From: Sipunculus nudus
Taxonomy: Eukaryota; Annelida; Sipuncula; Golfingiida; Sipunculidae
Assembly: GCA_026874595.1 (NCBI GenBank)
Contig: CM049307.1
Span: 22,607,079 to 22,671,078 of the forward strand
Length of the DNA stretch: 64,000 nucleotides
Direction of reading: 5' to 3'
The notes beneath the pieces are model-generated. The model made no database searches and was not told the origin of the DNA. It saw nothing but the letters and a program-made list of their open reading frames with translations. Positions within the stretch are counted from its first letter, which is position 1. Each line of letters opens with the position of its first letter. The translations under genes and the position numbers were made by a program. Of the stretch, positions 7,001-51,404 are shown piece after piece.

Positions 7001-10000
7001 CACTTTTCTTTGTAGATACTAGAAGCACAGACATAAAAACGTCTTTCACCACTGCAGGTTTAAACAGTCATCCTGTTAGGCTTCATTTCACAACTTTCAG
7101 GAAGCAGGTAGATTACCAGACAAGACTTGTGATCAGACTGTTAAATATACAAAATACCTTGCAGAGGTACTGATGCGACGCAAGATGGCTGCGGCCCAAA
7201 TTCGTCCGCCGGATTTGGATGCCCTGGCTGAAAGTCGTGAGCTGCGGATGAAAGAGATGCAGATGGAGGGCATCCTGAAGGAATGTATCATCTACTTTTT
7301 CTTCCTCATCATCCTGTTCTTCTTGTCCTACCAGAACAGGGACCCGGACTCCTTCCCATTTGCTGAAAATATCAAGAACAACTTCTTTGGATCTTTCTCT
7401 GTAAGTCCTTAATATATCCGCCTATGGAATATTGGGTGCAGATCCGACCTTTACTTATCGATAGATATGTGACCACTCTTTCGACAACTGAAGTCTTAAT
7501 TTAAAAGAAAAAAAAATTGTTTTGAATGTACATGTCTTTTGTACAGGTATTAACGCGTATGTCTGGGAATCAGCTCCGTGAATAGTAAATGGAATCTTGC
7601 AGGAAATCCTTTTCTGCTGTTTAATGATATACATGTATTTAAAATGTATTTGCGTTTACAATTGTTTACAAACATTTACATGGATATAATTGAACTCGTG
7701 CATCTGGGTTTGTATAATACGCTAAATGAAGGAATGCCACCGCGACGATGGGATGGACTGAAACGAAGCAAGGCAAGATTAAATAGGATGTGAAGATGGT
7801 TACATTGTCATTTAACTAAATCAGTTTCTTTTCAGGTGCAAAAAGTTGAGGGTTTACATTTAGATACGATGATATACAGTGAATTCTCGAAATTACGATC
7901 ACTAGTGGGATCCCGATAAAGTGGTCACAATTTTTAGCTGGACGTTTAAGCCAGGTCTAACCTAAAGAGCAAAAAAAAAAAAGAATTTCGACCGCAAGAA
8001 AGTGGTAAACATTTTCAGGTGGTCGCTAAACGTATATGTGGTCGTCAGGCGAGGGTTTACTGTATTAAGGCCTTCCGCTGTGATGACCAATATCTTTAAG
8101 TGAAAAAAAAACTGACGATTAATTTTAGGTATCAACACCACCGACCTACTGGAGCTGGATGTATGGAAGCTTGCTGCCGACTCTCTATGCCTCTAACTGG
8201 TACAACGGGAAGCGCCTCGATTGGCGAGAAGCACTTCAGATAAGTGATAGGAACACCATCCGGGTGGGCGTGGCCAGACTTCGTCAGCTCAGGATTGAAG
8301 ATGGTAATCTATAGTTTTTAGCTCAACTGACTGAAAGTCTTCTCCTCTATAGCAATCACTCTTTCTCCGTCGTCCGTATGTCTGTCCGTCCGTCCGTTAA
8401 CAAGTCACAAATCGTAACTGCTGGACCTAGAAACTTTTAAAATGAACACCCATGGAGTTCCATAAAAATCTCCTTGGAAACCTGAAATTAGGTCACTGTG
8501 ACCTATATCCTTCGAAGTATGGGGTTAAGTACCCGACAGAATAGTAACAAAAATGGAACAAAAGCTCTAATATCCGGATAACTAATGCATTGATCACCAT
8601 GATTCATTCTTTGCATATTGATCTTGGAATGTTTCATCATTTTCTGAAGACTGTTGGGGCCACCTGTATTTTTTTTTTTTTTTTTTTTGGTATATTTACA
8701 CATTTTTTTCTCAATTTTTGATACCTTCAGATGAAGCAGTCCTTCCGTTTACAGAGCACTAAATGTGACCGTTAGATATAGAAACCTCCTACTTTACATC
8801 TGGGGAGGTACTAGGCAAATCTCCTTAGAAACCTGAAATAAGGTCAAAGTGACCTATATTTTGTGAACTACAGGCCGAAAATATGATTATGAGCACCAAG
8901 TCAGTCAGACGGAGCACAAATTGTATCCGCTAGCCCTAGAATATTCTATTAACACGGTAACATCCGTTGAGGTACAAAAAAAAAAAAACTCATTGGAAAC
9001 GTGAAATTAGATCTCTGTGACCTATACCCCTTGAGCTATTGGGCTTGTAAATACCCCCTTGTATAATTAAAAATTTGATACAAAAGCTCCAATATCTGAA
9101 TAACTAATGTATTGACTGCAATGATTGTTTGCATGCATACTGATCATGGAGTGTTTCATCATTTCCTGAAGGCTGGTAGCGCCACTTGTAATTTTAGCTC
9201 AGCTGATCATAGGTTATCTGAGCTTTAGCAAACACCCTTTGTCAGTCATCCGTTTTGATTTTCAGAAGAAATATATAACGGTTTTGAACTCCAGCCGCGG
9301 GGATATTCTTTCAGGATAACAGAATGAAAAAAAAACTTTGATGCAATATCGTTTTATTATGATGTGACTTTAGCTATTTAGCCTCACTTTCCTGTCATTT
9401 TCATGTTGTCAACTGACCATATGAATTTTTTTATCGAAAATTTATAATGAAATTGTAAAATATTCCGTAAAAGTGCCTGAGACCTCAAACTTATTTGGCC
9501 TAATTACAGGTCCGATTAGGAGTAATATTACATGTCTTCTTAATTCTTAATTTATTATTCTTTCTTTTCTTGTCGAGCTCTGTTTGATCTCTAAGTTATT
9601 TTAAAATTTAATCTTTTTATACCGATTTAGTCATTGTGTAAATTGCATTTTGACAATCACCTATGTAAGTTTAATGTTTTCTATTATATTAGAAATGTAT
9701 ATTGTAAAGCATTCTTGAACACTCTTTCGGTGAAAAGAGGGCTGTATAAGTATGGCATAATAATAACAACAATAATAATACCGTATTCCCTTGATCAGAC
9801 GCTTGGCCTTGAACAGTCGTCTGCCTTATTTGGTGGCCGAGGCAAAACAATGTCTCAGAAAATAAACACCGGCATTAAACAGAGGCCGGTCTTTTTCAGA
9901 CCCGAGTCTGTGTCAGAGTAGTTTCCATGTTTGCTGCCAGATGTCTTTTCCTAATCACTATATCAATAATATTGAGGTTTGATTTACAGATTCCTGTGAC

Positions 10001-11336
10001 GTTCACAAGATCTTCCGCTCCATCGTGCACCACTGTCGTGGGGATTACAACTGGGTTGATGATGACATAGAGCCCTACCTCCCCGGCTGGCAGAAACCCC
10101 CGGAGTACAACGTGTCCGAGATGGAGAAGTCAAAATCACCCTGGGTCTACAGAAACTCCCTAAAGCTGAAAAGCACCCCCTACCTAGGAACAGTTAACAC
10201 ATATAAAGGTGGAGGGTACGCTATCAGTTTTGCGGTAGGTATTTTCGATCATAAATTACAGGTTATAGGGAATATTCAGTAGCATTTTTATATTTATAAA
10301 GAACTAAGCAGTCGCACACATCTTGTTGTCTTAATATATTCCTTTCAAACTGCTACACCCATTTCTCATAGATCATTGATTATATAATATGCGTTGATTT
10401 CGTATCTAGAATAACTGTAGAAATAATAATAATAATAATAATAATAAAAATGACTTTACATGTGCATAAGTATGGATGAGAGGACGAAAAATGAGATCAT
10501 GCCTTTACTAAGAGAGTGACCTTGACCTTGAATGTCTTCTTTTAAACAAATCAAGAAAGATTGCATGAATTAGTGTAAAAATTGACTGGGGGCTGACTGA
10601 AGGTATTGGATAGCTTTGTCTTCTACGGAAGACTGGGGCGCCACTTATTATCCTTTTCTTTGTTTTCGCCCCTTGTTAATACCCAGATCGTGCCGGAAGT
10701 AGTGTGAACATTTTTAAGTTAGAAATTAGAGGACAAATTTCTTTCATATCATGCACATGCACAGGCTAGATATGGCTTATAGAATGGACACTATTTAAAT
10801 TGGGGTCATCACCTTCACTTTGAGAGTGGCCTTGACCTTGAATGTTTCAATATTTAGTAAAAACAAAAGAAAAAAATATGTTTGTCTAGTCTTTCGATGT
10901 AATTATCTGAAAATCAAAATGTAAAATGTCAGATGGTTAGTTGTCGGATGAGTTCGAAAACCAGTGACCTTGAACTTGATGTTCAAGGTCAAATCTGTCA
11001 AAATATAGGACTTCTGTGAACCCCATAACTTTTGAAGTTTCACATCTTTATTTTTCAAATTTTACCCATAAATTGTTTTCACCAAGATCTCGTAAAAAAA
11101 ACATGAAAACTGGTGACCTTGACCTCAAATCTGCAGGAACATATGATTTTTGGAAACCCATACCTGTTGCAGTACCGCATATATTTTTATTAAATTTGGG
11201 ATACATATTGTTTTCACCAAGATCACGAACATAGTTGAAATTTTACTACCCTTTTGATACATATATAGCTGTAACCAAATTGTAAGAAAGGTTAAAATAT
11301 TTGTGACTCTGACTCTGGTGACCTTGAGGCTGTAAA

Positions 11337-11371
<35 letters not shown>

Positions 11372-14148
11372 TATTATTCTAGAGGAATTTGCAAAAGACC
11401 ATGCGCAAATTGAAGAAACTCGAGGAAAATGAATGGGTGGACGTCCGAACGCGAGGTTTGGTCTTGGAGTTCACTTTGTATAACGCAAACATTAACTTGT
11501 TTGCATCCGTGGTCATGTTAGCGGAGTTCCTGGCCACAGGGTCAGCCATAACAAGGACAGAGGTCAAGGTCGGTATATCAGGAGGTCATTTCGTACTAAA
11601 ACGTTTTCCTTTTCTTTTATGTCTCTTCTCGTCCTTATTTCAGTGATTTACCAAATGAAGAACATGAATATTTAAGGAGGTTATTTGTAAACGAGGCAGC
11701 CAATTAGGTCCGAGTTAACTAAAACATTGCGGTAAAACAACAAGAGTGTATTTGAATAAGCAGGGCAAAGGAATAAGATCTAATCTTCTGTATGTAAATT
11801 TCACAGTGTATCTGTATCGACACCTTTCCGCCAGAGGTTCTGTTCTACCCAAAACGAACCCTCCCAGTTTGGCACCGTAGCTTGTCCCATTTCTGAAACT
11901 TTTAAACAGAAATTTGTCTCATTTCAAGAAATTACCTATAACTATTTCACATGGGCATGCTTGCAAAATATAACTTATTTCGTGAAGTTTTTACCACAAA
12001 ACGCCCATGGTTTTTTTTGTAATTTGTCTTGAAACGATTCTCACCCTACGCATTTGCACGGACTACATTATCCTCTTAACCACATTAATACCTACACTAT
12101 CGGTGTACTTAGAAGACAGTGTGGGGTCAGAATGTGAAACTGTACTGTCGTGAGTCCGATTCTGCATGGTGTACTTAAACTGTCGACTGAAATGTTTGTA
12201 TAAACTGCAGGTATTCCGACTACAGAGCTACGTGGGTGGTTTTGGCATTGTGGTCATCATTTTCGAGGTGGCCTACGGTTGCTTCACCCTGTTCTTCTTA
12301 ATCAAAGAGGCCAACCGACTCCGGAAGGAAAGGCTCAAGTACTTCAAGGAGTTTTGGTCGCTGATAGAATTCTCTGTCCTGGTTCTCTCTGTCACGGCCG
12401 TCGTCATGTACGCCATGAAGAAAGTGTTTGGCACGGTGGCCATCAACGCTTTACATGAGAGCGGATCAGGTGCGTGCTGTTAGTAGCGTGTACATGCACA
12501 TGTATATTGAAGATGGAGCGTCTCTATAAATCACGTTTCTGATCTATTTCTTTTTAATAAAACGTGTAAATGACAACAAAAGAAGTGTTTTAAGGAATGT
12601 ATTACGGTCTGATGTTTCGAAAATGAAATCCATAGAGGGCCATTTCTAATTTTGCATTCAAATTTTGCACTCGGATAATTGTATACAGACAAAGGCAATT
12701 GTTTTTATGTTTAATTAATGCACTCTGTCTCATTAAGCATGTACACATGTAATAGTTCATTTTTAAGGGTTTATCGTGCCTGAACACTGCTTTGAATGCT
12801 TGACTCCTGCGCATAAATTAAAATTAAATTGCTCCCACGGACAGGTCCGCTCATTATGCGTGTTCCTCCTGCTGTATATGTAAGCGGAGCTTTCTTAAAC
12901 CAAGGAGTCAGCGAAATTTGGACACATTTTATATGCCAACCTCAGCCCATGAAATCATGGCAAGTATGGATAGGTACATAAAGACAAGTCGAGCCTACGT
13001 AGAAAAAAAACAGATTTGTCACATAATATTTGCTCTTTACAAGCCAACACATAAGTCAAACACTCAGCTTTCCAGATATGTATAGATTAACTAGAAAATA
13101 TCCTGTAAGCTTTGAAAAGGATTAAAGTTCTTTATCTGTAGACGTGGATGGGCAAAAGTTTGAAGTCTCCAACAATATCCGTTATAACATAATTCAACAA
13201 TAGCACTTTACATGCTTAATGGTTCTTAACAAGTAACACGTATAATCACTGGTGACTCTCTCGGTTTTTGTGTTTTATAGGAGAGTACCGTTATGTCTTA
13301 ATATGATACAAAAGTTCTGTCATAAGAGTAACACATCATTCAGGCCACCCAAAAGGAGAACCATCTGATGTTTCCTTATCATCAGCTCCTCCTCCTTCTC
13401 CTCCTCCTCCTCATCACATGCGCATACACGAGTTGGGGCTAAAAATTTCGTCGATTGTCGGATTATACCAATAATAATGATAATACCATGCTTTCATATT
13501 TTAGTAGAGAGCCAGTGTGTGTGTTTTACAGGTACGTTTTGATATTTTAATGGTACTAAGCTTAACAATATGGCGTTTTTTTACGTGAAATGATAATCAT
13601 TATAATGTTCTTATTTTTTTGCTGTAGGTGACTTCGTGAATTTTGTGACCATCTCCGTGTGGGACGAAGCTTACACACTTGTGGTGGGTCTCGTGGTGTT
13701 CATGAGTACTGTAAAGTTCATAAAACTTCTCAAGTTTAACAAACGCATGGGGATGCTGGGAGACACCATCCGCTTGGCGAGCAAGGACCTCAAGTACTTC
13801 ACACTCACATTCCTCATCTACTTTGCCGGATTTTGTCAGATGGCTTACGTTTTGTTCGGGCAGCTGTTGCCAAGTTATGGCTCCTTCGTCGGTACGGTGG
13901 AATCTCTGTTCGCGTTCGCCCTCGGCAGCTTCGACTTCTACGAGTTCCAGGACGCGAATCGCGTGCTCGGTCCTTTGTTCTTCTTCCTGTTCGTGGCTAT
14001 CGTCTACGTCGGGTTGATGGGAATGTTCATGACCATCCTGTACGACGCATTCGCCGAAGTCAAGTCTAACGTGGAGCTGCGGTCCAATGATTATGAGATC
14101 GTCGACTTCATGATGAAGAAGTTCAAGGGAGTGTTCGGTTGGAGTTAG
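336..14148 (+). CDS. polycystin-1-like protein, 3' ten exons (5' part outside window)
   Basis: Partial gene for a large multi-pass membrane protein of the polycystin-1 family. Exons: 336-496, 1060-1745, 2645-2784, 3179-3314, 7165-7400, 8129-8303, 9990-10234, 11383-11568, 12211-12469, 13628-14148. They sum to 2745 nt, i.e. 914 residues plus stop, with intron phases agreeing at every junction. Domains in order: end of a PLAT domain (residues 1-54), two membrane segments and a basic loop (54-282), two more segments (283-350), an acidic loop, first channel segment (about 415-435), extracellular polycystin domain (about 454-660), S2-S3 (660-741), S4-S5-pore-S6 (742-905) and a short tail. PLAT followed by this segment pattern is the polycystin-1/PKD1L architecture rather than PKD2. 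The short tail, without the long coiled-coil C-terminus of PKD1, favours a PKD1L2-like member (inference). The family acts as ion-channel or receptor subunits in plasma or ciliary membrane. The final four exons are duplicated downstream. Confidence 0.9.
502..565. repeat. (CT)n(AT)n microsatellite abutting a splice donor
   Basis: (CT)n at 502-535 continues directly into (AT)n at 535-565. It starts about six bases after the exon boundary at 496, so the donor context is largely repeat sequence. The open frames across it are artefacts of the dinucleotide repeat. Confidence 0.9.
941..1001. repeat. (TA)n microsatellite in polycystin intron
   Basis: About 60 bases of pure TA dinucleotide, roughly 60 bases upstream of the acceptor at 1059. 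Apparent coding in both directions (Ile-Tyr repeats) is spurious. Confidence 0.95.
1060..1745 (+). CDS. polycystin exon 2: post-PLAT block and two membrane segments
   Basis: Acceptor ..cgtatttcag; donor ct|gtgagt. Contains the family block FFLCNQWLDVVEGDG, then KKLTNEHLWFSVLSRPTRSHFTRVQR, a membrane segment around SCCVSLLFLTMITN and a second around LYISVVTTAIVFPPNLILV. A basic cytoplasmic loop of about 100 residues (KARPKKN to KKKKRW) follows. The block directly after PLAT is diagnostic of the polycystin-1 subfamily. This is the longest exon seen in the gene. Confidence 0.92.
1899..2232 (+). mobile_element. tRNA-derived SINE-like element
   Basis: Bases 1899-1971 resemble a tRNA: A-box-like TGGCTCAGGGG, D-stem GCTC/GAGC, and B-box-like GAGTTCGAATCTC with a T-arm of four of five pairs. 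The acceptor-type ends pair imperfectly and the anticodon stem does not pair, so it is not a working tRNA gene. A tRNA-unrelated, GC-richer body of about 260 bases follows, ending near an A-rich stretch at 2221-2230. Head plus body is the standard SINE layout. It sits in the intron between 1745 and 2645. No target duplication could be fixed by eye. Confidence 0.7.
2233..2644 (+). other. intron, nothing recognised
   Basis: AT-rich intronic sequence between the SINE-like element and exon 3. A short hairpin (ggagg/cctcc) lies near 2231-2248. No other feature seen. Confidence 0.5.
2645..2784 (+). CDS. polycystin exon 3: membrane segments
   Basis: Enters in phase 1 after ttttattgtag and ends in phase 0 at aag|gtaacg. 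Encodes a hydrophobic helix (CFFSVVTSAFFTILYSMEWG), a short charged loop (KDKSNEW) and the start of another helix ending QSVVVVQPVK. The IxYSMxWG and FFQSVxVVQPxK patterns are conserved in polycystin-1 relatives. Confidence 0.9.
3179..3314 (+). CDS. polycystin exon 4: end of helix and acidic loop
   Basis: Acceptor ..aatcacgccag, a poor polypyrimidine tract, but the frame continues QPVK|VLLLAAFISCILRK to complete the helix begun in the previous exon. An acidic cytoplasmic stretch (DLDEEEETFDDV) follows. Donor caag|gtgaga leaves phase 1. A 3.85 kb intron follows. Confidence 0.85.
3315..7164 (+). other. 3.85 kb polycystin intron, no gene seen
   Basis: AT-rich, with a degenerate (AGT)n tract at about 3838-3902. 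Open frames in it are short and lack codon structure or homology I recognise. The flanking exons join in frame (phase 1 to phase 1) without an additional exon. Confidence 0.6.
7165..7400 (+). CDS. polycystin exon 5: first channel segment
   Basis: Acceptor ..taccttgcag; donor tct|gtaagt (strong). Starts EVLMRRKMAAAQIRPPD, a charged pre-helix rich in Arg/Glu/Met, then the helix ECIIYFFFLIILFFLSYQN, then the start of the extracellular polycystin domain (RDPDSFPFAENIKNNFFGSF). The methionine near 7173 is internal, not a start. Confidence 0.9.
7401..8128 (+). other. polycystin intron, nothing recognised
   Basis: AT-rich intron between exon 5 and exon 6 with poly-A runs near 7970 and 8103. No repeat family or exon recognised. 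Confidence 0.5.
8129..8303 (+). CDS. polycystin exon 6: extracellular polycystin domain, part 1
   Basis: Acceptor ..gattaattttag; donor gatg|gtaatc, phase 1. Encodes STPPTYWSWMYGSLLPTLY then NWYNGKRLDWREALQISDRN and RVGVARLRQLRIED. The pattern 'W.W....LLP.LY....YNG' followed by 'VGVARLRQLR' is characteristic of the domain between S1 and S2. The tandem-duplication breakpoint lies inside this exon: only bases 8281-8303 are present in the second copy. Confidence 0.92.
8304..9989 (+). repeat. intron filled with interspersed repeats (AGCTCA-type ends)
   Basis: From about 8314 (AGCTCAACTGACTGAAAGTC, then a GTCCGTCC-rich stretch) the intron matches, in reverse orientation, the repeat family seen at 44-46 kb and 54-56 kb: shared phrases are 'gaaattaggtcactgtgacctat' type stretches, 'gtttcatcattt' and 'ggcgccac' type sequence. 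A second AGCTCAGCTGA start lies at about 9194. No exon seen. The same block recurs at about 20602-22283. Confidence 0.65.
9990..10234 (+). CDS. polycystin exon 7: extracellular polycystin domain, part 2
   Basis: Acceptor ..tttgatttacag, donor gcg|gtaggt, phase 1 in and phase 0 out. Encodes DSCDVHKIFRSIVHHCRGDY with two cysteines that could form the domain's disulfide, then a Pro/Trp-rich stretch and TYKGGGYAISFA, the conserved T-Y-x-GGGY motif of the polycystin domain. The protein encoded by the duplicated exon at 22284-22528 is identical over the part compared. Confidence 0.92.
10235..11382 (+). other. intron with repeated nuclear-receptor-like half-sites
   Basis: Contains many TGACCTTGA / TCAAGGTCA motifs (for example near 10507, 10838, 10965-10991 and 11114), an (AAT)n tract at about 10423-10446 and an (ATT)n tract at 11338-11378 that forms the acceptor region. 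It resembles the GGTCA-rich modules of the interspersed repeat family at 47-53 kb. This intron shows the greatest divergence between the two duplicated copies. Confidence 0.6.
11383..11568 (+). CDS. polycystin exon 8: extracellular polycystin domain, end
   Basis: Follows an (ATT)n tract used as acceptor (..ttattattctag). Encodes RNLQKTMRKLKKLEENEWVD, then TRGLVLEFTLYNANINLFA, the conserved 'T.A.F.EFT.YNAN.NLF' block before S2. The donor is aag|gtcggt, non-consensus at +3, but it is the only placement that keeps frame with the next exon (EVK|VFRLQSY). The second copy has the same donor. Confidence 0.88.
12211..12469 (+). CDS. polycystin exon 9: channel segments S2 and S3
   Basis: Acceptor ..tataaactgcag; donor tcag|gtgcgt, leaving phase 1. 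Two hydrophobic stretches: FGIVVIIFEVAYGCFTLFFL (S2) and LIEFSVLVLSVTAVVMYAM (S3), separated by the charged loop KEANRLRKERLKYFKEFW, which matches the S2-S3 linker of polycystin channels. Confidence 0.92.
12470..13627 (+). other. intron, nothing recognised beyond (CCT)n
   Basis: AT-rich intron with a (CTC)n-like stretch at about 13386-13413. No repeat family or exon recognised. Confidence 0.5.
13628..14148 (+). CDS. polycystin terminal exon 10: S4, S5, pore, S6, stop
   Basis: Acceptor ..atttttttgctgtag; stop at 14146-14148. Contains WDEAYTLVVGLVVFMSTVKF and KLLKFNKRM (S4), FTLTFLIYFAGFCQMAYVLFG (S5), the pore-helix/filter region ESLFAFALGSFDFYEFQDAN, and S6 (NRVLGPLFFFLFVAIVYVGL). The tail after S6 is only about 30 residues. 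The filter region reads ALGSFDF, without the clear acidic filter of PKD2 channels, so the conductance properties cannot be inferred. Confidence 0.94.
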
Positions 14149-16352
14149 TTATAAAACTGACACTTCATGTGTGAGATACCTTCATATATTATATATACTA
14201 CCACGTACACTACCCGTGTCATTAAGACCTGATGCAGCTAAGTGACTGCCTAGATATATTTCACCTTACCACACCTTATCCTACCGGTTATCTTTGAGGG
14301 GCAGTGGACCGACCAGGTGTACCAAAGATCAAAAGTATTTCTTGAGATGTCAGGTCTGTGCATGGCGAAGAAACTTCAGCTGTAAGGCCAAAGTCAACCG
14401 CGTCCCTTGTGTTACTACAATTTCAGTGACAGTCTTAAATTAAGATAACGCTTATTTATTCTGTGATAGATTAGTGACCAATCCTGCAGAGATAGAGGGA
14501 ACATTTGGCTGGGTTTTTTTCAAAATATGTTAGCTTTCAATGTGAGTTAAATCAGGTATATTTTTACATGAATACTTAATACTGAGTCCATTTAAAATCA
14601 GTTCAGTAACATGCAACACTTGAATAGATTTGTCTTAACCTTTACCTGATATTATGTAACATGACCGGATATTACGTAACTGTGCCGTGCAGTCCATTTA
14701 ATACGTAAAAATAGGTAGCTGCAGGAAGAAATATGGTCGAGGAAGGCTTTATTAAACATACACCATTACAAAACGGGCTTTTCTGTGGGAAGGTTTTGAC
14801 TGGTCGTGATCCAATCAAAGAGTCTCTAAATTCTAATTGATTATGCTAAAAATTAAATATTTGGAACTTTTATGAGAATCCAGGGAATTGGGCCAACAAA
14901 TACGCTGGTCGTATTGAACGATATTTTTCGCACTTGTTTGAGTTGGTTTACCCCCACCAAAACTAGAAGTGGGACAGTTTTTTTAAACTTAAACTGTGGA
15001 AGAATGTGTAACTAAAAATCATTGTGTTGACCAAGAAACGTTTATGTTTAATATGATGAACTGAAAAGAAGACATAAGCTTGTTTTATTCCTACCACGTT
15101 ATATTTATGACTTTAGCCTGACAATGGCATTTATGCGCGGCTATGACCATATACTATTAGATGTGTGTATTACTTACTATGTACCAATAAATATAGAAGC
15201 ATACCTTTCAATTTGTTTTGTACTGTTTATAAACTGAATATTCCACATTTATCATACCATTACTATTGGTAACTCAAACCAGAAAATAATAATCATCGAA
15301 ATGTACGCGTCAAATTGAAAATAAGAATCCCCATAGTTTAGAAATTCCGGGTCAACATAAACGTCATGTGTTGCGTTATTAAATGTTCTGTGCTATATTT
15401 AGGCGCCCCTCGGGAATGAACTAGAACGCAAGAACAAATGAGACAGTGAGTTGGTCACATTTCTCTCTATGGAACTGTAGCTAACGCTGTTAGTCAGTTA
15501 TTTGTATTTTATTATGCATTGGTCATGTTTCAGAGGGGGGGGGGGGGGGGGTGGACACACATTTTTTAGAAGTGGGAGGCAAAGACCGATATTTCCCCTC
15601 ACATCATAGGTAAATAAAAGGCATAATTTAAAATAACGGCTATTGGATAATACTGTTGTTCTTTTATATAGTTTCTTCATAATTACCTCACAAATCTAAT
15701 CTTTTAATTATGTAACTCATCTATTAGAAATGTTAGAACATGGCATGCTTATATGGTCTCATTCAATCATAGTTAATGTTAGCCTATTGAATCTTTAATT
15801 ATTATACAGGTAAACTCTGATTACATTTCGGTTTCAGAATTAAGGGAAACAAAATTCCAAATATTTTATGATAGTGAAGAAAATTGTGTTTTTTTCTGGA
15901 TGAGACAATTTATCCTCCTTGTCATAAGCGAGGGGGTGGGGTTCCTTACCCATGTGGATTATCCTCACAATGCCCATGTTAAAATGCGATTGCTCTCGGA
16001 TACAAAACTATCCCTTTCCCTTAGTCATAACCCGACGTATGTTATCTGTAAAGGTCTTTGCATCTGTAAAGGTCGGCTTATAAAGCACTGGCCAAAGGTC
16101 CCATGATCGTGATAGTAAGCGGCGATGAAGAATAAAAGTAGTTATTTGGATTTAAACCATATTTATTGCTTTTTAGTACACGTTCCAACATACAATGGTT
16201 TATCATTCTATAAAATGACCAATGTCTTAGAGAACATTTCCTCTAGTTCTGTACTCACCTTCTTACTTTCGGCTGTTCTGCTGTCTGCCTGTCTCCTGCT
16301 GTAGTTACCAGAGATCCAACAGGTACACATTACATTGTATGTACCTTGGTAC

Positions 16353-16421
<69 letters not shown>

Positions 16422-18180
16422 CTGATTACACAGAAGTGATTGACAGAAACTAATACGACATTTATAGGTAGAACTGATTGATATATGCACACATACCAGT
16501 TGACACAAAAGTTTACACCTTACTTTTAAATTTGTTTTCACAAGTATAATATACTAATATTTCATTAAGACATATTTCAGATGAGGTCGGTACTTTTTGT
16601 CTTTTGTGGTAGGATATTAGTTTAAACTACATGCACACCCGAGCGTAACTGTTGCTTCAAGTGAGCAATAACGATACACTTAAATTTTCATGTAACGGTA
16701 GAAACTTTCGCTTCTCTTCGCCGGCATTCGACCATATCAGATACACAATTAAATTATTTAAAATACGCGTACCTTTTGCGATCAGTGCGTTTGTCAGTCA
16801 TTTACTCGCCCCCCCCCCCCCCCCCCCCCCCCCCCCACCAAGTAGCGCCATCGTGTGTCAAAACAAAGACTAATCCCGAGACGACCCGTCGAAATCAATG
16901 TGACGGAATTTTAGCAGATGCGGATCCAGTGGGGGGGGGGGGGGGGGGCTTTCATTTTATTTATAGATGTCCAAATAAATTATATCGAGATCTCAAAATG
17001 ATTTCCAGGGGGAGCCAGTGGGATATGTGGTTAAAGGTTATGTGCTCGGACCGAGTTGGCAGGACTACAGTGCTGATGAAAAATGAAAAATAGTGACTAT
17101 TATTACAACTGTAGTTGCTGACCCAGTCACTTTTGTAATAACGGTCGCTATTGTAATAAATGTCGTTATTATATACACAATGACGTGAGGATGGATTGCA
17201 CCCTCAGTACTTCACACTTGAACATAAATATATAAATTTAGTGGCATACAACATGGAAAATTAGAGGAATTTCTTCTAAAGCCGTAAGATAAAAGTGGCC
17301 ACTGGGATGCGTGTGCATTCAGGTTTTTGATGATCTTTGACTTGTTTCTATTGTCGGACGTATAAAGAATAGGTTGATGTGAGGAAGACATGAACGATGA
17401 ATTTAATGTACGTTATAAGGAAGGAAACTATTCCTGAAGAAAGATATACCTCGTATACATGCATACCTCTTTAGTATCAGAGGCGGACATAGGTGAAGTC
17501 GGAACCGTTTATTAATCGAAACAGACCAATTATGAGCCCTGGAAACCTCGCCCCCACCTACACCCCTTTTCCGGAAATGGGGACCTTCCATTAGGTCTTG
17601 TCATTTATCCCCCTTGGATGAACCCTTTCTTTTCATAAATCGAGAGTAATGTGTTTCAAAGTTTCCGGTTCCGGTCGGGTCGACTCGACGTGCTTCACAT
17701 CTGCTCTACAATTGTTTGGATATTTTTACCTAAAATTCCGTTCGTGCCACTTCAAGTATCCAGGAGTTTAAGATTTGATTTATTATCAGGAACAGTAGTC
17801 TGCTACAGGTAAGAGCACCCCGGAGGTCTGGATAAACTGTTCTTTCCGTCAAAACTTAAATTCAAAATTGACCATTGACGGCCATTAGCTGTTCAGTGTT
17901 TCACAGGAACTGTATGAAATAAATTAATGAATATATAATAAAGTGAAATACAAGAAATGCAAACTAACATTTGGCGATCATTTTGCCTCCCTTTGAGGCT
18001 AACTAAATAGCCATAGCTCGAAGAATTTCTTTATCGGAATTTTCTTTAACCACGATCTCTCTGATGTAACCGCAAACAAACGGGTTACGGTTGAACCAGA
18101 GTTCATCAAGTGTAAATATCTCCCACGGTCCGCACAACATGAAGATAGTGTAAGCACCAGCTAGGGAGTTACGTGCGGCG
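14149..18180 (+). other. 3' UTR and flank of polycystin gene; simple repeats
   Basis: Probably 3' UTR to about 15.2 kb, then non-coding sequence. Simple repeats: poly-G 15535-15551, (AT)n 16355-16419, poly-C 16809-16836 and poly-G 16931-16948. No coding exon recognised. Open frames here (for example 15900-16106) have no recognisable content and recur unchanged in the duplicate. Confidence 0.5.
15186..15191 (+). terminator. candidate poly(A) signal of polycystin gene
   Basis: AATAAA about 1.04 kb after the stop codon in AT-rich non-coding sequence. It is repeated in the duplicate at 27480-27485. Other weaker hexamers may be used; assignment is by motif only. Confidence 0.35.
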
Positions 18181-20601: not shown

Positions 20602-22283
20602 GTAATCTATAGTTTTTAGCTCAACTGACTGAAAGTCTTCTCCTCTATAGCAATCACTCTTTCTCCGTCGTCCGTATGTCTGTCCGTCCGTCCGTTAACA
20701 AGTCACAAATCGTAACTGCTGGACCTAGAAACTTTTAAAATGAACACCCATGGAGTTCCATAAAAATCTCCTTGGAAACCTGAAATTAGGTCACTGTGAC
20801 CTATATCCTTCGAAGTATGGGGTTAAGTACCCGACAGAATAGTAACAAAAATGGAACAAAAGCTCTAATATCCGGATAACTAATGCATTGATCACCATGA
20901 TTCATTCTTTGCATATTGATCTTGGAATGTTTCATCATTTTCTGAAGACTGTTGGGGCCACCTGTATTTTTTTTTTTTTTTTTTGGTATATTTACACATT
21001 TTTTTCTCAATTTTTGATACCTTCAGATGAAGCAGTCCTTCCGTTTACAGAGCACTAAATGTGACCGTTAGATATAGAAACCTCCTACTTTACATCTGGG
21101 GAGGTACTAGGCAAATCTCCTTAGAAACCTGAAATAAGGTCAAAGTGACCTATATTTTGTGAACTACAGGCCGAAAATATGATTATGAGCACCAAGTCAG
21201 TCAGACGGAGCACAAATTGTATCCGCTAGCCCTAGAATATTCTATTAACACGGTAACATCCGTTGAGGTACAAAAAAAAAAAACTCATTGGAAACGTGAA
21301 ATTAGATCTCTGTGACCTATACCCCTTGAGCTATTGGGCTTGTAAATACCCCCTTGTATAATTAAAAATTTGATACAAAAGCTCCAATATCTGAATAACT
21401 AATGCATTGACTGCAATGATTGTTTGCATGCATACTGATCATGGAGTGTTTCATCATTTCCTGAAGGCTGGTAGCGCCACTTGTAATTTTAGCTCAGCTG
21501 ATCATTGGTTATCTGAGCTTTAGCAAACACCCTTTGTCAGTCATCCGTTTTGATTTTCAGAAGAAATATATAACGGTTTTGAACTCCAGCCGCGGGGATA
21601 TTCTTTCAGGATAACAGAATGAAAAAAAAACTTTGATGCAATATCGTTTTATTATGATGTGACTTTAGCTATTTAGCCTCACTTTCCTGTCATTTTCATG
21701 TTGTCAACTGACCATATGAATTTTTTTATCGAAAATTTATAATGAAATTGTAAAATATTCCGTAAAAGTGCCTGAGACCTCAAACTTATTTGGCCTAATT
21801 ACAGGTCCGATTAGGAGTAATATTACATGTCTTCTTAATTCTTAATTTATTATTCTTTCTTTTCTTGTCGAGCTCTGTTTGATCTCTAAGTTATTTTAAA
21901 ATTTAATCTTTTTATACCGATTTAGTCATTGTGTAAATTGCATTTTGACAATCACCTATGTAAGTTAATGTTTTCTATTATATTAGAAATGTATATTGTA
22001 AAGCATTCTTGAACACTCTTTCGGTGAAAAGAGGGCTGTATAAGTATGGCATAATAATAACAACAATAATAATACCGTATTCCCTTGATCAGACGCTTGG
22101 CCTTGAACAGTCGTCTGCCTTATTTGGTGGCCGAGGCAAAACAATGTCTCAGAAAATAAACACCGGCCTTAAACAGAGGCCGGTCTTTTTCAGACCCGAG
22201 TCTGTGTCAGAGTAGTTTCCATGTTTGCTGCCAGATGTCTTTTCCTGATCACTATATTAATAATATTGAGGTTTGATTTACAG
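20602..22283 (+). repeat. second copy of repeat-filled intron
   Basis: Copy of 8304-9989 with poly-T and poly-A length changes and a handful of substitutions (for example tgatcataggt to tgatcattggt near 21505, and cctaatcac to cctgatcac near 22245). No additional features. Confidence 0.7.
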
Positions 22284-22528
22284 ATTCCTGTGACGTTCAC
22301 AAGATCTTCCGCTCCATCGTGCACCACTGTCGTGGGGATTACAACTGGGTTGATGATGACATAGAGCCCTACCTCCCCGGCTGGCAGAAACCCCCGGAGT
22401 ACAACGTGTCCGAGATGGAGAAGTCAAAATCACCCTGGGTCTACAGAAACTCCCTAAAGCTGAAAAGCACCCCCTACCTAGGAACAGTTAACACATATAA
22501 AGGTGGAGGGTACGCTATCAGTTTTGCG
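22284..22528 (+). CDS. polycystin exon 7, second copy
   Basis: 245 bp like the first copy, with the same acceptor and donor. The translated protein is the same over the stretch compared (CRGDY to GGGYAISFA). Confidence 0.8.
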
Positions 22529-23669
22529 GTAGGTATTTTCGATCATAAATTACAGGTTATAGGGAATATTCAGTAGCATTTTTATATTTATAAAGAACTA
22601 AGCAGTCGCACACATCTTGTTGTCTTAATATATTCCTTTCAAACTGCTACACCCATTTCTCATAGATCATTGATTATATAATATGCGTTGATTTCGTATC
22701 TAGAATAACTGTAGAAATAATAATAATAATAATAATAATAAAAATGACTTTACATGTGCATAAGTATGGATGAGAGGACGAAGCCTATTTAAAATGAGAT
22801 CATGCCTTTACTAAGAGAGTGACCTTGACCTTGAATGTCTTCTTTTAAACAAATCAAGAAAGATTGCATGAATTAGTGTAAAAATTGACTGGGGGCTGAC
22901 TGAAGGTATTGGATAGCTTTGTCTTCTACGGAAGACTGGGGCGCCACTTATTATCCTTTTCTTTGTTTTCGCCCCTTGTTAATACCCAGATCGTGCCGGA
23001 AGTAGTGTGAACATTTTTAAGTTAGAAATTAGAGGACAAATTTCTTTCATATCATGCACATGCACAGGCTAGATATGGCTTATAGAATGGAAACTATTTA
23101 AATTGGGGTCATCACCTTCACTTTGAGAGTGGCCTTGACCTTGAGTGTTTCAATATTTAGTAAAAACAAAAGAAAAAAATATGTTTGTCAAGTATTTTGA
23201 TGTCATTATCTGAAAATCAAAATGTAAAATGTCAGATGGTTAGTTGTCGGATGAGTTCGAAAACCAGTGACCTTGAACTTGATGTTCAAGGTCAAATCTG
23301 TCAAAATATAGGACTTTTGTGAACCCCATAACTTTTGAAGTTCCACATCTTTATTTTTCAAATTTTACACATAAATTGTTTTCACCAAGATCTCGTAAAA
23401 AAACAAGGTGACAAGGTGAAAACTGGTGACCTTGACCTCAAATCTGCAGGAACATATGATTTTGGATGCGCGTATATTTTTATCAAATTTGGGATACATA
23501 TTGTTTCCACCAAGATCACGAACATAGTTGAAATTTTACTACCCTTTTGATACATATATAGCTGTAACCAAATTGTAAGAAAGGTTAAAATATTTGTGAC
23601 TCTGACTCTGGTGACCTTGAGGCTGTAAAGTTATTATTATTATTATTATTATTACTATTATTATTATAG

Positions 23670-23855
23670 AGGAATTTGCAAAAGACCATGCGCAAATTAA
23701 AGAAACTCGAGGAAAATGAATGGGTGGACGTCCGAACGCGAGGTTTGGTCTTGGAGTTCACTTTGTATAACGCAAACATTAACTTGTTTGCATCCGTGGT
23801 CATGTTAGCGGAGTTCCTGGCCACAGGGTCAGCCATAACAAGGACAGAGGTCAAG
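23670..23855 (+). CDS. polycystin exon 8, second copy
   Basis: 186 bp. One synonymous change relative to copy one (Leu ttg to tta near 23696). The acceptor reads ..ttattatag instead of ..ttattctag and the unusual gtcggt donor is retained. Confidence 0.8.
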
Positions 23856-24502
23856 GTCGGTATATCAGGAGGTCATTTCGTACTAAGACGTTTTCCTTTT
23901 CTTTTATGTCTCTTCTCGTCCTTATTTCAGTGATTTACCAAATGAAGAACATGAATATTTAAGGAGATTATTTTTGTAAACGAGGCAGCCAATTAGGTCC
24001 GAGTTAACCAAAACATTGCGGTAAAAAAACAAGAGTGTATTTGAATAAGCAGGGCAAAGGAATAAGATCTAATCTTCTATATGTAAATTTCACAGTGTAT
24101 CTGTATCGACACCTTTCCGCCAGAGGTTCTGTTCTACCCAAAACGAACCCTCCCAGTTTGGCACCGTAGCTTGTCCCATTTGTGAAACTTTTAAACAGAA
24201 ATTTGTCTCATTTCAAGAAATTACCTATAACTATTTCACATGGGCATGCTTGCAAAATATAACTTATTTCGTGAAGTTTTTACCACAAAACGCCCATGGT
24301 TTTTTTTTTTGTAATTTGTCTTGAAACGATTCTCACCCTACGCATTTGCACGGACTACATTATCCTCTTAACCACATTAATAACTACACTATCGGTGTAC
24401 TTAGAAGACAGTGTGGGGTCAGAATGTGAAACTGTACTGTCGTGAGTCCGATTCTGCATGGTGTACTTAAACTGTCGACTGAAATGTTTGTATAAACCGC
24501 AG

Positions 24503-24761
24503 GTATTCCGACTACAGAGCTACGTGGGTGGTTTTGGCATTGTGGTCATCATTTTCGAGGTGGCCTACGGTTGCTTCACCCTGTTCTTCTTAATCAAAGA
24601 GGCCAACCGACTCCGGAAGGAAAGGCTCAAGTACTTCAAGGAGTTTTGGTCGCTGATAGAATTCTCTGTCCTGGTTCTCTCTGTCACGGCCGTCGTCATG
24701 TACGCCATGAAGAAAGTGTTTGGCACGGTGGCCATCAACGCTTTACATGAGAGCGGATCAG
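24503..24761 (+). CDS. polycystin exon 9, second copy
   Basis: 259 bp with identical protein. The acceptor reads ..ataaaccgcag in place of ..ataaactgcag, a change inside the polypyrimidine region that leaves the AG intact. Confidence 0.8.
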
Positions 24762-25921
24762 GTGCGTGCTGTTAGTAGCGTGTACATGCACATGTATATT
24801 GAAGATGGAGCGTCTCTATAAATCACGTTTCTGATCTATTTCTTTTTAATAAAACGTGTAAATGACAACAAAAGAAGTGTTTTAAGGAGTGTATTACGGT
24901 CTGATGTTTCGAAAATGAAATCCATAGAGGGCCATTTCTAATTTTGCATTCAAATTTTGCACTCGGATAATTGTATACAGACAAAGGCAATTGTTTTTAT
25001 GTTTAATTAATGCACTCTGTCTCATTAAGCATGTTCACATGTAATAGTTCATTTTTAAGGGTTTATCGTGCCTGAACACTGCTTTGAATGCTTGACTCCT
25101 GAGCATAAATTAAAATTAAATTGCTCCCACGGACAGGTCCGCTCATTATGCGTGTTCCTCCTGCTGTATATGTAAGCGGAGCTTTCTTAAACCAAGGAGT
25201 CAGCGAAATTTGGACACATTTTATATGCCAACCTCAGCCCATGAAATCATGGCAAGTATGGATAGGTACATAAAGACAAGTCGAGCCTACGTAGAAAAAA
25301 AAAACAGATTTGTCACATAATATTTGCTGTTTACAAGCCAACACATAAGTAAAACACTCAGCTTTCCAGATATGTATAGATTAACTAGAAAATATCCTGT
25401 AAGCTTTGAAAAAGATTAAAGTACTTTATCTGTAGACGTGGATGGGCAAAAGTTTGAAGTCTCCAACAATATTCGTTATAACATAATTCAACAATAGCAC
25501 TTTACTTGCTTAATGTTTCTTAACAAGTAACACGTATAATCACTGGTGACTCTCTCGTTTTTTGTGTTTCATAGGAGAGTACCGTTATGTCTTAATATGA
25601 TACAAAAGTTCTGTCATAAGAGTAACACATCATTCAGGCCACCCAAAAGGAGAACCATCTGATGTTTCCTTATCATCAGCTCCTCCTCCTTCTCCTCCTC
25701 CTCCTCATCACATGCGCATACACGAGTTGGGGCTAAAAATTTCGTCGATTGTCGGATTATACCAATAATAATGATAATACCATGCTTTCATATTTTAGTA
25801 GAGAGCCAGTGTGTGTGTTTTACAGGTACGTTTTGATATTTTAATGGTACTAAGCTTAACAATATGGCGTTTTTTTACGTGAAATGATAATCATTATAAT
25901 GTTCTTATTTTTTTGCTGTAG

Positions 25922-26442
25922 GTGACTTCGTGAATTTTGTGACCATCTCCGTGTGGGACGAAGCTTACACACTTGTGGTGGGTCTCGTGGTGTTCATGAG
26001 TACTGTAAAGTTCATAAAACTTCTCAAGTTTAACAAACGCATGGGGATGCTGGGAGACACCATCCGCTTGGCGAGCAAGGACCTCAAGTACTTCACACTC
26101 ACATTCCTCATCTACTTTGCCGGATTTTGTCAGATGGCTTACGTTTTGTTCGGGCAGCTGTTGCCAAGTTATGGCTCCTTCGTCGGTACGGTGGAATCTC
26201 TGTTCGCGTTCGCCCTCGGCAGCTTCGACTTCTACGAGTTCCAGGACGCGAATCGCGTGCTCGGTCCTTTGTTCTTCTTCCTGTTCGTGGCTATCGTCTA
26301 CGTCGGGTTGATGGGAATGTTCATGACCATCCTGTACGACGCATTCGCCGAAGTCAAGTCTAACGTGGAGCTGCGGTCCAATGATTATGAGATCGTCGAC
26401 TTCATGATGAAGAAGTTCAAGGGAGTGTTCGGTTGGAGTTAG
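25922..26442 (+). CDS. polycystin terminal exon 10, second copy
   Basis: 521 bp encoding the same S4-pore-S6 segment and stop as 13628-14148. The 3' flank is also nearly identical, including the AATAAA at 27480-27485. Confidence 0.8.
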
Positions 26443-28644
26443 TTATAAAACTGACACTTCATGTGTGAGATACCTTCATATATTATATATACTACCACGT
26501 ACACTACCCGTGTCATTAAGACCTGATGCAGCTAAGTGACTGCCTAGATATATTTCACCTTACCACACCTTATCCTACCGGTTATCTTTGAGGGGCAGTG
26601 GACCGACCAGGTGTACCAAAGATCAAAAGTATTTCTTGAGATGTCAGGTCTGTGCATGGCGAAGAAACTTCAGCTGTAAGGCCAAAGTCAACCGCGTCCC
26701 TTGTGTTACTACAATTTCAGTGACAGTCTTAAATTAAGATAACGCTTATTTATTCTGTGATAGATTAGTGACCAATCCTGCAGAGATAGAGGGAACATTT
26801 GGCTGGGTTTTTTTCAAAATATGTTAGCTTTCAATGTGAGTTAAATCAGGTATATTTTTACATGAATACTTAATACTGAGTCCATTTAAAATCAGTTCAG
26901 TAACATGCAACACTTGAATAGATTTGTCTTAACCTTTACCTGATATTATGTAACATGACCGGATATTACGTAACTGTGCCGTGCAGTCCATTTAATACGT
27001 AAAAATAGGTAGCTGCAGGAAGAAATATGGTCGAGGAAGGCTTTATTAAACATACACCATTACAAAACGGGCTTTTCTGTGGGAAGGTTTTGACTGGTCG
27101 TGATCCAATCAAAGAGTCTCTAAATTCTAATTGATTATGCTAAAAATTAAATATTTGGAACTTTTATGAGAATCCAGGGAATTGGGCCAACAAATACGCT
27201 GGTCGTATTGAACGATATTTTTCGCACTTGTTTGAGTTGGTTTACCCCCACCAAAACTAGAAGTGGGACAGTTTTTTTAAACTTAAACTGTGGAAGAATG
27301 TGTAACTAAAAATCATTGTGTTGACCAAGAAACGTTTATGTTTAATATGATGAACTGAAAAGAAGACATAAGCTTGTTTTATTCCTACCACGTTATATTT
27401 ATGACTTTAGCCTGACAATGGCATTTATGCGCGGCTATGACCATATACTATTAGATGTGTGTATTACTTACTATGTACCAATAAATATAGAAGCATACCT
27501 TTCAATTTGTTTTGTACTGTTTATAAACTGAATATTCCACATTTATCATACCATTACTATTGGTAACTCAAACCAGAAAATAATAATCATCGAAATGTAC
27601 GCGTCAAATTGAAAATAAGAATCCCCATAGTTTAGAAATTCCGGGTCAACATAAACGTCATGTGTTGCGTTATTAAATGTTCTGTGCTATATTTAGGCGC
27701 CCCTCGGGAATGAACTAGAACGCAAGAACAAATGAGACAGTGAGTTGGTCACATTTCTCTCTATGGAACTGTAGCTAACGCTGTTAGTCAGTTATTTGTA
27801 TTTTATTATGCATTGGTCATGTTTCAGAGGGGGGGGGGGGGGTGGACACACATTTTTTTAGAAGTGGGAGGCAAAGACCGATATTTCCCCTCACATCATA
27901 GGTAAATAAAAGGCATAATTTAAAATAACGGCTATTGGATAATACTGTTGTTCTTTTATATAGTTTCTTCATAATTACCTCACAAATCTAATCTTTTAAT
28001 TATGTAACTCATCTATTAGAAATGTTAGAACATGGCATGCTTATATGGTCTCATTCAATCATAGTTAATGTTAGCCTATTGAATCTTTAATTATTATACA
28101 GGTAAACTCTGATTACATTTCGGTTTCAGAATTAAGGGAAACAAAAGTCCAAATATTTTATGATAGTGAAGAAAATTGTGTTTTTTTCTGGATGAGACAA
28201 TTTATCCTCCTTGTCATAAGCGAGGGGGTGGGGTTCCTTACCCATGTGGATTATCCTCACAATGCCCATGTTAAAATGCGATTGCTCTCGGATACAAAAC
28301 TATCCCTTTCCCTTAGTCATAACCCGACGTATGTTATCTGTAAAGGTCTTTGCATCTGTAAAGGTCGGCTTATAAAGCACTGGCCAAAGGTCCCATGATC
28401 GTGATAGTAAGCGGCGATGAAGAATAAAAGTAGTTATTTGGATTTAAACCATATTTATTGCTTTTTAGTACACGTTCCAACATACAATGGTTTATCATTC
28501 TATAAAATGACCAATGTCTTAGAGAACATTTCCTCTAGTTCTGTACTCACCTTCTTACTTTCGGCTGTTCTGCTGTCTGCCTGTCTCCTGCTGTAGTTAC
28601 CAGAGATCCAACAGGTACACATTACATTGTATGTACCTTGGTAC

Positions 28645-28695
<51 letters not shown>

Positions 28696-30447
28696 CTGAT
28701 TACACAGAAGTGATTGACAGAAACTAATACGACATTTATAGGTAGAACTGATTGATATATGCACACATACCAGTTGACACAAAAGTTTACACCTTACTTT
28801 TAAATTTGTTTTCACAAGTATAATATACTAATATTTCATTAAGACATATTTCAGATGAGGTCGGTACTTTTTGTCTTTTGTGGTAGGATATTAGTTTAAA
28901 CTACATGCACACCCGAGCGTAACTGTTGCTTCAAGTGAGCAATAACGATACACTTAAATTTTCATGTAACGGTAGAAACTTTCGCTTCTCTTCGCCGGCA
29001 TTCGACCATATCAGATACACAATTAAATTATTTAAAATACGCGTACCTTTTGCGATCAGTGCGTTTGTCAGTCATTTACTCGCCCCCCCCCCCCCCCCCA
29101 CCAAGTAGCGCCATCGTGTGTCAAAACAAAGACTAATCCCGAGACGACCCGTCGAAATCAATGTGACGGAATTTTAGCAGATGCGGATCCAGTGGGGGGG
29201 GGGGGGGGGGGGGGGCTTTCATTTTATTTATAGATGTCCAAATAAATTATATCGAGATCTCAAAATGATTTCCAGGGGGAGCCAGTGGGATATGTGGTTA
29301 AAGGTTATGTGCTCGGACCGAGTTGGCAGGACTACAGTGCTGATGAAAAATGAAAAATAGTGACTATTATTACAACTGTAGTTGCTGACCCAGTCACTTT
29401 TGTAATAACGGTCGCTATTGTAATAAATGTCGTTATTATATACACAATGACGTGAGGATGGATTGCACCCTCAGTACTTCACACTTGAACATAAATATAT
29501 AAATTTAGTGGCATACAACATGGAAAATTAGAGGAATTTCTTCTAAAGCCGTAAGATAAAAGTGGCCACTGGGATGCGTGTGCATTCAGGTTTTTGATGA
29601 TCTTTGACTTGTTTCTATTGTCGGACGTATAAAGAATAGGTTGATGTGAGGAAGACATGAACGATGAATTTAATGTACGTTATAAGGAAGGAAACTATTC
29701 CTGAAGAAAGATATACCTCGTATACATGCATACCTCTTTAGTATCAGAGGCGGACATAGGTGAAGTCGGAACCGTTTATTAATCGAAACAGACCAATTAT
29801 GAGCCCTGGAAACCTCGCCCCCACCTACACCCCTTTTCCGGAAATGGGGACCTTCCATTAGGTCTTGTCATTTATCCCCCTTGGATGAACCCTTTCTTTT
29901 CATAAATCGAGAGTAATGTGTTTCAAAGTTTCCGGTTCCGGTCGGGTCGACTCGACGTGCTTCACATCTGCTCTACAATTGTTTGGATATTTTTACCTAA
30001 AATTCCGTTCGTGCCACTTCAAGTATCCAGGAGTTTAAGATTTGATTTATTATCAGGAACAGTAGTCTGCTACAGGTAAGAGCACCCCGGAGGTCTGGAT
30101 AAACTATTCTTTCCGTCAAAACTTAAATTCTAAATTGACCATTGACGGCCATTAGCTGTTCAGTGTTTCACAGGAACTGTATGAAATAAATTAATGAATA
30201 TATAATAAAGTGAAATACAAGAAATGCAAACTAACATTTGGCGATCATTTTGCCTCCCTTTGAGGCTAACTAAATAGCCATAGCTCGAAGAATTTCTTTA
30301 TCGGAATTTTCTTTAACCACGATCTCTCTGATGTAACCGCAAACAAACGGGTTACGGTTGAACCAGAGTTCATCAAGTGTAAATATCTCCCACGGTCCGC
30401 ACAACATGAAGATAGTGTAAGCACCAGCTAGGGAGTTACGTGCGGCG
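26443..30447 (+). other. second copy of polycystin 3' flank
   Basis: Copy of 14149-18180. Simple repeats have changed length: poly-G 27829-27842, (AT)n 28647-28693, poly-C 29083-29099, poly-G 29194-29215. Apart from simple repeats the two copies are close to identical by eye. Confidence 0.6.
27480..27485 (+). terminator. candidate poly(A) signal, second copy
   Basis: AATAAA equivalent to the one at 15186-15191, about 1.04 kb after the second stop codon. Confidence 0.3.
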
Positions 30448-33400
30448 GCAGAGCACATAGCTGGTCACGCAACAAAGGAAGGTGCGCAGCGCATTCGCAG
30501 TGTTTGGCGGCTGTATCCCAGATCAATCGAAGCGCGCTCCCGGCTGCTTTGTAGAAGGCATTCAACTATGAGACCGATCTTTTTCGCTGCACTCAAGTAA
30601 TCCTTTTATTGTCCGCCAGGAGGCGAGCGCCCAAGCGAGACCACCAACCACGCGTGTCATCCCCTTTTCCTACACCAAAGGCAAAACCTTAGAAAACATG
30701 GATGTGAACTGCGATCCAAGATATACGACGAATGTGATAGAAACGACAACGGAAAGCTGACCAGATGGAAGACAGGCCGCAGGTTTGTGTATATAACCAG
30801 ACCATAGTTCCCAATCTGAAACAAAATACAAATGGGGCTTTACCGGGCCATTATTTACCATCGGTAACAGAAAGATGGAGAGAAACGCGCGACTGCAATG
30901 TGCGGAAACTGTCTTCAGTTAGGCCACTTTAAGCGAGCGTATGAGAACCTAATGAAATGTAGAGTCTGCCAACAAGCGGGTGATCCTGCATGTTAGATAG
31001 AAAAACTCACAGATGCCACTAAGCAGCTGGATAGACCAGCACAAATCATTGCTGACAATCACGACAATTCTGTTTCCCTTACCCAGCCTCAACCATCACA
31101 TCATCCAAATTAAAAACTTACGTCGTAGAAGTAAATTGCAAGAGTGGCGAAATCTTTAATAGTGGTCGCACATCCAGAAAAGCAAAAACACAGGCGAAAG
31201 TCAACAGATCACGCCCAAGCTCCACCTCTCGGGCAGGTAAAATGAAGGTGATAGAGACTGACAACTTCTAAAAGGCCATTAAACTGGGAGAGCAGAATAA
31301 AAGAAAAGCATCATCCCCCACAGGTGACCAGACACAGAAAAGGCAGGAGCTCCACAACTCTCCAGTATGACGAGGATGATAATCACTTTGACGTCTCTGC
31401 GGATTTGACCGATTACGTCTCTGTATTAAGTGATTTTAAAAAAAAAATCTTCATACTGTCTGCCGGATTCTCACTGAATATGGTTAACTTGAATTGCTAT
31501 GGACTGAGAACCAAGTTAAGAAGAAGCACTATATTAAATACGCTTAAATCGCAAAAAGTTGGAATAACTTACACTGATCATGAACTTATTGAATTTTTTA
31601 AAAGCAATGAAATGGTAAAGATATCCAAATCGCAGGCGGCAATTACAACAATGGTCTGGCGATATTAGTGAGTAAAGAAATAGTTTAAAATTAGAAAATT
31701 TAGCCAAGTCAGTCATGGCATCTCCTGATTGGCACATGTTGTGGCTCTGCGAAGCACACGGCCCGACGCACTGTGTTTATTTTGACACCTGCGATCGCGC
31801 CCGGTTCACTCTTTTTAACAGTCGTTTACAGGAGTAAGCAAACGGTTTCAAGGCAATATTCTGGCAGGTACATATTTATTTTAAAGGGAAGAAGCTATTT
31901 TTCGTGTTAACTCAACATGCTTTATAGGTAATTGGGCCCCTTTAAATGTTACGACATCACTTACATTCCTTGCACAGATCACAAGCCAGTCTAAGTTAAA
32001 ATCTAAGTTAACAAAGCAGCCAGAGGTTCATCTTATTGGAAATGTAATATTTCATTGCTAAGGGATAAACAATTTATTTATATGATAAATGATCTCATCT
32101 CAGATTTTTATACAAATGACAATTTAAAATAATGCTCAACTACAGTGGGAGCTATGCTAAGTTAAAAAATAAAAGAATTCACAGTAAAATATGATAAATG
32201 GAAATCAGCAGACGGAAATCAATACTATCAGAATTTATAAATATGTTGTATTCGATAAAAAAAAACAATTAGCAAATTTTCCTCAAATGAAGAGTTACAA
32301 ATTATAACATCACATTGAAGATCCGATATAGATGTCATTGCCATACACGAAACAAGAAGTGCACAAATCAGAGCGAGAATTAAATGGAATGAACAAATAA
32401 CAAGGCGAAAAGAACACGAGTTATTTCTTAAATCTTGAAAAGGCAAGAGCAACTCAAAAATACATACCAAATCTTATAGACGAATCAGGCAAAATGATAA
32501 CCAGCCAGACAGATATATTAAAACAGTTAACTAAACACTATAGTGATCTATACAAAGACAAGCCAGAGAGGAATGCGCAGAATTTCAATGATTTAATTGG
32601 AGATATTAATTACCCAAAACTAAATGAAGAATTGAAAATGAAATGTGAAGGTATGGTGAATACGGAAGAAGTTGCTAGGGCTCTACAAAGAATGAAAAAT
32701 AGATCTAGTCCGGGTCTGGACGCACTGACCACGGAATTTTATAAGTTTTTTGGCCAAAAATTAACACTCTTATTGTTAATTCTTTTAATGCAGGGTTCCA
32801 GTATGGAAAATTACCCGTTCCCCAAAGACGAGGGATTATCACCCTACTTCATAAAGGCAAAGGCTCACCGAAAAATAATTTGTCGAACTGGCGCCCTATA
32901 AGCATTTCAAATACTGATTACAACTTAATACTAGCTAATAGGAAAAGTTCTAGCTCTACGCCTTCAGAAAGTTATAAATCATATTGTAAGCGCGGATCAA
33001 GTTGGATATATTAAAAATCGCAATATCTCGAGTTTATTTGTCGGATTGATGATATCATCACATATACAGACAGATATCAGAAAGAGGGAGCCATCGTAGC
33101 ACTCGACTCTAATGGAGCTCTAGACTCCATCTCCAAAAACATATATGGCTAAGGCTTTCGACTTGTTCGGATTCGGCCTAGATTTCTTACCCTGGATAGA
33201 GGTATTGTGTGAGGCAAGCGAGAACTGTATTCAGTATGAAGGTTGGCTCACATAAATGTTCCCAGTTCAAAGGGGCGTAAGGCAAGGATGCCCCTTTTCG
33301 CCTTTACATTTCGTCGCTATAGAATTACTTTCTCTCAAATAAAAAAAATAAAAACATTGACGGTATACAGCTACCAGACCAGAACTATGATATTAAATAC

Positions 33401-37095: not shown

Positions 37096-37133
37096 GTGAT
37101 TCACGTGGTTTTCACGCCGGATAAACCAATAAA

Positions 37134-51400: not shown

Positions 51401-51404
51401 TCCA

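Follow-up and report, generated by a model that had tools for sequence, protein, structure and literature searches.

A polycystin gene with a repeated 3′ end

We analysed a 64,000-nucleotide stretch of the Sipunculus nudus genome (C2:22607079–22671078; the window, in whose coordinates all positions are given), which carries exons of a polycystin-1-like gene on the forward strand. A 12.3 kb segment in the 3′ part of this gene occurs twice, head to tail. The reading we prefer, to which we give a probability of roughly 0.6 on the sequence evidence set out below, is that this is a real and young tandem duplication whose second copy would be mostly silent.

Exons are numbered here as in an earlier note on the same DNA (the original prediction). 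From splice sites and reading frame, exon 6 was placed at 8129–8303 and exon 7 at 9990–10234; exons 8, 9 and 10 follow at 11383–11568, 12211–12469 and 13628–14148, the last ending in TAG. Spliced together, exons 6–10 encode an uninterrupted protein of 461 residues. Exon 6 alone scores 20.9 bits against the Pfam Polycystin domain, below the cutoff of 23.6; once it is spliced to exons 7–10, the same domain reaches 145.1 bits (2.5e-42) and PKD_channel is matched at 4.7e-49. Exon 9 supplies the first part of the channel domain and exon 10 the pore part, covering positions 2–76 and 81–225, respectively, of the 225 positions of PKD_channel. This coverage fits the predicted inclusion of the S2-to-S6 pore region in the duplicated segment.

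The protein from exons 6–10 matches 20 distinct PDB sequences, with PKD2L1 the best (1.1e-68), followed by PKD2, PKD1L3 (1.8e-39) and PKD1 (4.9e-16), a ranking by which the channel taken alone is closer to the PKD2 proteins of known structure. On the same strand, upstream of these exons, are a PLAT domain of the same gene at 300–480 (24.1 bits, cutoff 23), PKD repeats (1.6e-24) and a candidate GPS-like motif (21.8 bits, below the cutoff of 22.5). We infer that PKD repeats, GPS-like motif, PLAT and channel all belong to one transcript, and on that assumption the polycystin channel domain, with PKD repeats and PLAT upstream of it, places the gene in the PKD1 family. The same order on one strand, PKD repeats, GPS-like motif (here a candidate), PLAT and channel, is described for SpREJ of sea urchin and PKD1 of human in PMC1934368. 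The present gene differs from them in having its 3′ exons twice, and scans of three upstream frames returned no REJ domain.

Extent of the duplication and its flanks

Self-BLAST of the window aligned 8279–20578 (copy 1) with 20577–32845 (copy 2) in direct orientation on the forward strand, at 98.889% identity over 12331 aligned columns. The first two bases of copy 1, CT, are the bases shared at the join, and the original prediction that 8281–20578 recurs directly at 20579–32845 was accurate to the base. This is the sole pair longer than 1 kb in the window (among the 80 longest self-BLAST matches). In the 264 kb around the window, where we searched for pairs of at least 500 bp and at least 90% identity with the low-complexity filter on, no other pair exceeds both 95% identity and 3 kb. 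Exon 6 has a single occurrence in these 264 kb and exons 7–10 have two, the second set lying at 22284–22528, 23670–23855, 24503–24761 and 25922–26442. The arrangement is therefore that of a tandem duplication: the two copies are adjacent, direct and near-identical, the one join between them is new, and the flank on either outer side is old.

The left break falls inside coding sequence, as had been proposed: base 8281 is within exon 6, and exon 6 reads on through the break. The last 23 bases of the exon (8281–8303) recur at 20579–20601, there lacking an acceptor. The right break, likewise in agreement with the proposal, falls inside ORF2 (open reading frame 2) of a long interspersed nuclear element (LINE). 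Here the frame 20134–20616 matches LINE-1 (L1) ORF2 proteins in the PDB over residues 14–131, with E 4.3e-8. The element is decayed; in copy 1 it occupies 19123–20578, where the join cuts it, and in copy 2 it continues to at least 34207.

When 261 bases across the join were searched against the genome, and 40 of 2053 candidates scored, there was one full-length match. Among the same 40, the LINE half alone was matched at 14 further places, at 83–89% identity, and the end of exon 6 with the adjoining intron had no further match beyond the two in the window. The intron directly after exon 6 starts with a dispersed repeat (8306–8412, and again at 20604–20710), and 23 of the 40 scored matches lie there only. 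An ORF2 related to that of L1, together with dispersed copies, identifies the element as an L1-type LINE. Two results speak against the assignment: the frame just past the break, 32745–33011, matches no PDB entry even with E allowed up to 1, and neither LINE frame has a meaningful Pfam match.

Five of the 14 LINE-only matches (L004–L008, those given as loci) were used as relatives to distinguish old sequence from new. All five align unbroken through 32845, and with copy 1 the alignment stops six bases beyond the join, at 20584. Base by base, all five agree with the right flank of copy 2, and copy 1 departs from them directly after CACCCT. Exon 6 being intact across the left break, and five of five relatives running across the right break, the outer flanks are old and the join at 20578/20579 (20577–20580 with the shared bases) is new. 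Both copies lack a LINE stretch that is present in L004–L008, between 19435 and about 19675–19694; LINE insertion and decay thus preceded the duplication. At the differing site 20545/32812 all five relatives share the base of copy 2, so that the change occurred in copy 1.

The join and how it may have arisen

The shared CT was found as originally described, with two bases common to both sides leftward of the join and none rightward. It had been taken as the signature of end joining or microhomology, and this does not hold. At least two bases were shared by chance in 17,252 of 100,000 random pairs of positions in the window (17%), and CT therefore does not identify the mechanism. A further motif near the join, ACTTC, is common to both sides, and 13.9% of 20,000 random pairs have a motif of this kind. 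With two shared bases the join does not exceed what chance provides, as microhomology would; it fits end joining without proving it. The accompanying claim that repeats did not recombine here is borne out, since exon 6 meets a LINE with two bases in common and no long homology. The earlier interpretation stands in these points: the head-to-tail duplication is young, it has a single new join, and its breaks have no long repeat in common.

The event could have begun when one chromatid or homologue broke, or replication restarted on it, within the LINE, the end then being joined to exon 6 of another at two matching bases. Human partial tandem gene duplications, as covered in the copy-number literature (for example PMC8165465 and PMC6177444), are alike in their direct orientation, their one new join with few or no shared bases, and the repetition of exons inside a gene. 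The present case differs in concerning a non-human gene and in its patchy divergence. The event is of an ordinary type, a partial tandem duplication of a gene, though it may instead be an assembly error; a patchy history is not surprising. Among the literature matches listed, none gives an account of this locus.

Divergence between the copies and the possibility of an assembly artefact

Differences between the two copies cluster strongly. There are no substitutions in 8279–9109 (831 bp), 39 in a divergent island at 9110–13276 (4167 bp) and 6 in a near-identical stretch at 13277–20578 (7302 bp). When 45 substitutions were placed uniformly, an empty gap of at least 2578 bp arose in 22 of 20000 trials. 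Differences are densest at 10789–11412, a patch of 624 bp with several indels and 14 substitutions, which two methods do not align alike. In all, MAFFT counts 52 substitutions and 15 indels, and affine global alignment 45 and 18, the disagreement lying chiefly near 11100–11180, within the island. The clustering persists when the patch is left out (P 1.1e-6). The copies were originally called recent, and they are young; the word needs qualifying, as divergence varies more than 10-fold among parts of the duplication.

Two features of this pattern count against a young duplication that has simply aged with a silent second copy. The first is that, under uniform placement, a count as low as that of the near-identical stretch was reached by any 7302-bp stretch in 0 of 5000 simulations. 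The clustering excludes a simple clock running after one event, and selection does not readily account for the flat stretch, which includes the LINE and other non-coding sequence. The second is that coding bases in the island are spared, with 1 difference in 689 against 38 in 3478 non-coding bases (Fisher P 0.015; the exon limits used were wrong by one or two bases, and the corrected limits give 690 coding bases). This is not what differences accumulated by a silent copy since the duplication would give, and is a better fit to an allelic origin, an artefact or a working copy 2.

The patchiness would be explained by gene conversion between the copies, by their descent from two alleles, or by an assembler having laid two haplotypes in tandem. 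If the duplication is real, the pattern may have come about through later conversion, or it may have been present from the outset because the copies stem from two alleles. A comparable island amid near-identical stretches of two paralogues has been attributed to gene conversion in GOT1 of Tigriopus (PMC3728101). Here, in contrast, most of the island is intron, and the copies encode identical proteins.

In the third of these explanations, two alleles of one unduplicated locus would have been placed head to tail, and the join would be the meeting of haplotype contigs. We regard this as unlikely, while giving it real weight. The differences are indeed allele-like, at about 1% in one block and near none elsewhere, with coding sequence spared and simple repeats changed in length, and the right break lies within a dispersed repeat. 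False heterotype duplications, as described in PMC9516828, similarly show adjacent near-identical copies, allele-like differences and genes cut between exons. The same paper describes false duplications as widespread in assemblies and sometimes joined without a gap. No gap separates the copies here: the 264 kb around the window contain no run of N, which favours a real duplication. The contig carrying the window is 98.5 Mb long, in a 1.43 Gb assembly of 153 contigs. In addition, the left break is in coding sequence rather than in a dispersed repeat, among the scored genome matches, and the single full-length match of the join, together with the want of any other exon 6 end with its intron among those matches, speaks for a real event. 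On balance the duplication is quite probably real rather than an artefact of assembly. Were it an error, it would enter a survey of polycystin genes as a false gain of exons; if it is real, its patchy divergence offers a small test case for distinguishing conversion between tandem copies from allelic origin.

Consequences for the gene

All splice sites in the duplicated part are kept, as had been noted: exons 7–10 have the same lengths in both copies, with AG and GT at their borders. Two changes between the copies lie near splice sites, at −4 of exon 8 (11379) and −5 of exon 9 (12206). Over the 1211 coding bases of exons 7–10 there is one difference, at 11412/23699 in exon 8, which is synonymous, and the encoded proteins are identical.

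Copy 1 adjoins the upstream exons and has a stop codon, and can therefore complete the protein; it would keep making the channel. The duplicated part had been described as a channel module. This is right as to its content, and a second working module is not supported, as copy 2 has neither the first exons nor the acceptor of exon 6. Most likely copy 2 is a 5′-truncated spare, with an exon 6 remnant that could not be spliced, carried silently or serving at most as a redundant 3′ end. Caught this young, a partial tandem duplication of the kind would represent raw material for gene change, with intact channel exons cut off from their promoter.

It is also conceivable that the duplication is in use, with exon 6 skipping the exons of copy 1 and copy 2 supplying alternative 3′ exons that selection has kept. 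The frames would allow it, since the end of exon 6 and the start of exon 7 are both in phase 1; the duplicated part also has its splice sites and frame undamaged, with island coding bases spared. The product, however, would be exactly the same protein whether exon 6 were joined to copy 1 or to copy 2, and youth alone accounts for the intactness. Nine AATAAA motifs follow exon 10 within copy 1, so that transcripts may stop before copy 2 is reached. We consider such use improbable.

Use of the duplicated exons in series seems less probable still. The block of exons 7, 8 and 9 begins and ends in phase 1, so that joining exon 9 directly to the copy-2 exon 7 would stay in frame; if made, this splice would double the extracellular polycystin domain and the channel's first half. 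The stop codon of exon 10 is also overlapped by a weak possible donor, cutting after 14143, which would give 863 residues in frame from exon 6 on, with two full pores in one chain. This two-pore product is unlikely. By a simple score, whose position frequencies are approximate, the donor at 14143 reaches −2.04, against 0.87 to 5.42 for the donors of exons 6–9, and 185 of the 704 GT sites in 8001–20000 score as high or higher.

The preferred reading, in which copy 1 completes the channel and copy 2 is mostly silent, takes the TAG of exon 10 as the end of the gene. The next gene on the forward strand, at 37125–40529, is WS/DGAT-like (wax ester synthase/diacylglycerol acyltransferase), and the polycystin gene thus ends most simply at 14146–14148. 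Inspection of candidate acceptors by eye revealed no convincing further C-terminal exon in 14149–18100; any that may exist there would fall in the duplicated part.

Other features of the window

The WS/DGAT-like gene lies directly downstream of the duplication and has at least two exons. Its segment at 40356–40529 was tried as a C-terminal exon of the polycystin gene and rejected, as it matches the WS/DGAT C-terminal domain (28.6 bits) and belongs with 37125–38447. Further downstream, satellite-like and dispersed repeats occupy a zone at 44656–55619, in which a 337-bp unit occurs twice at 46380–47101 and a 180-bp unit six times at 48122–49212 and twice at 53607–53971. On the minus strand, the frame 61887–62261 matches an OST-HTH/LOTUS domain (3e-8).
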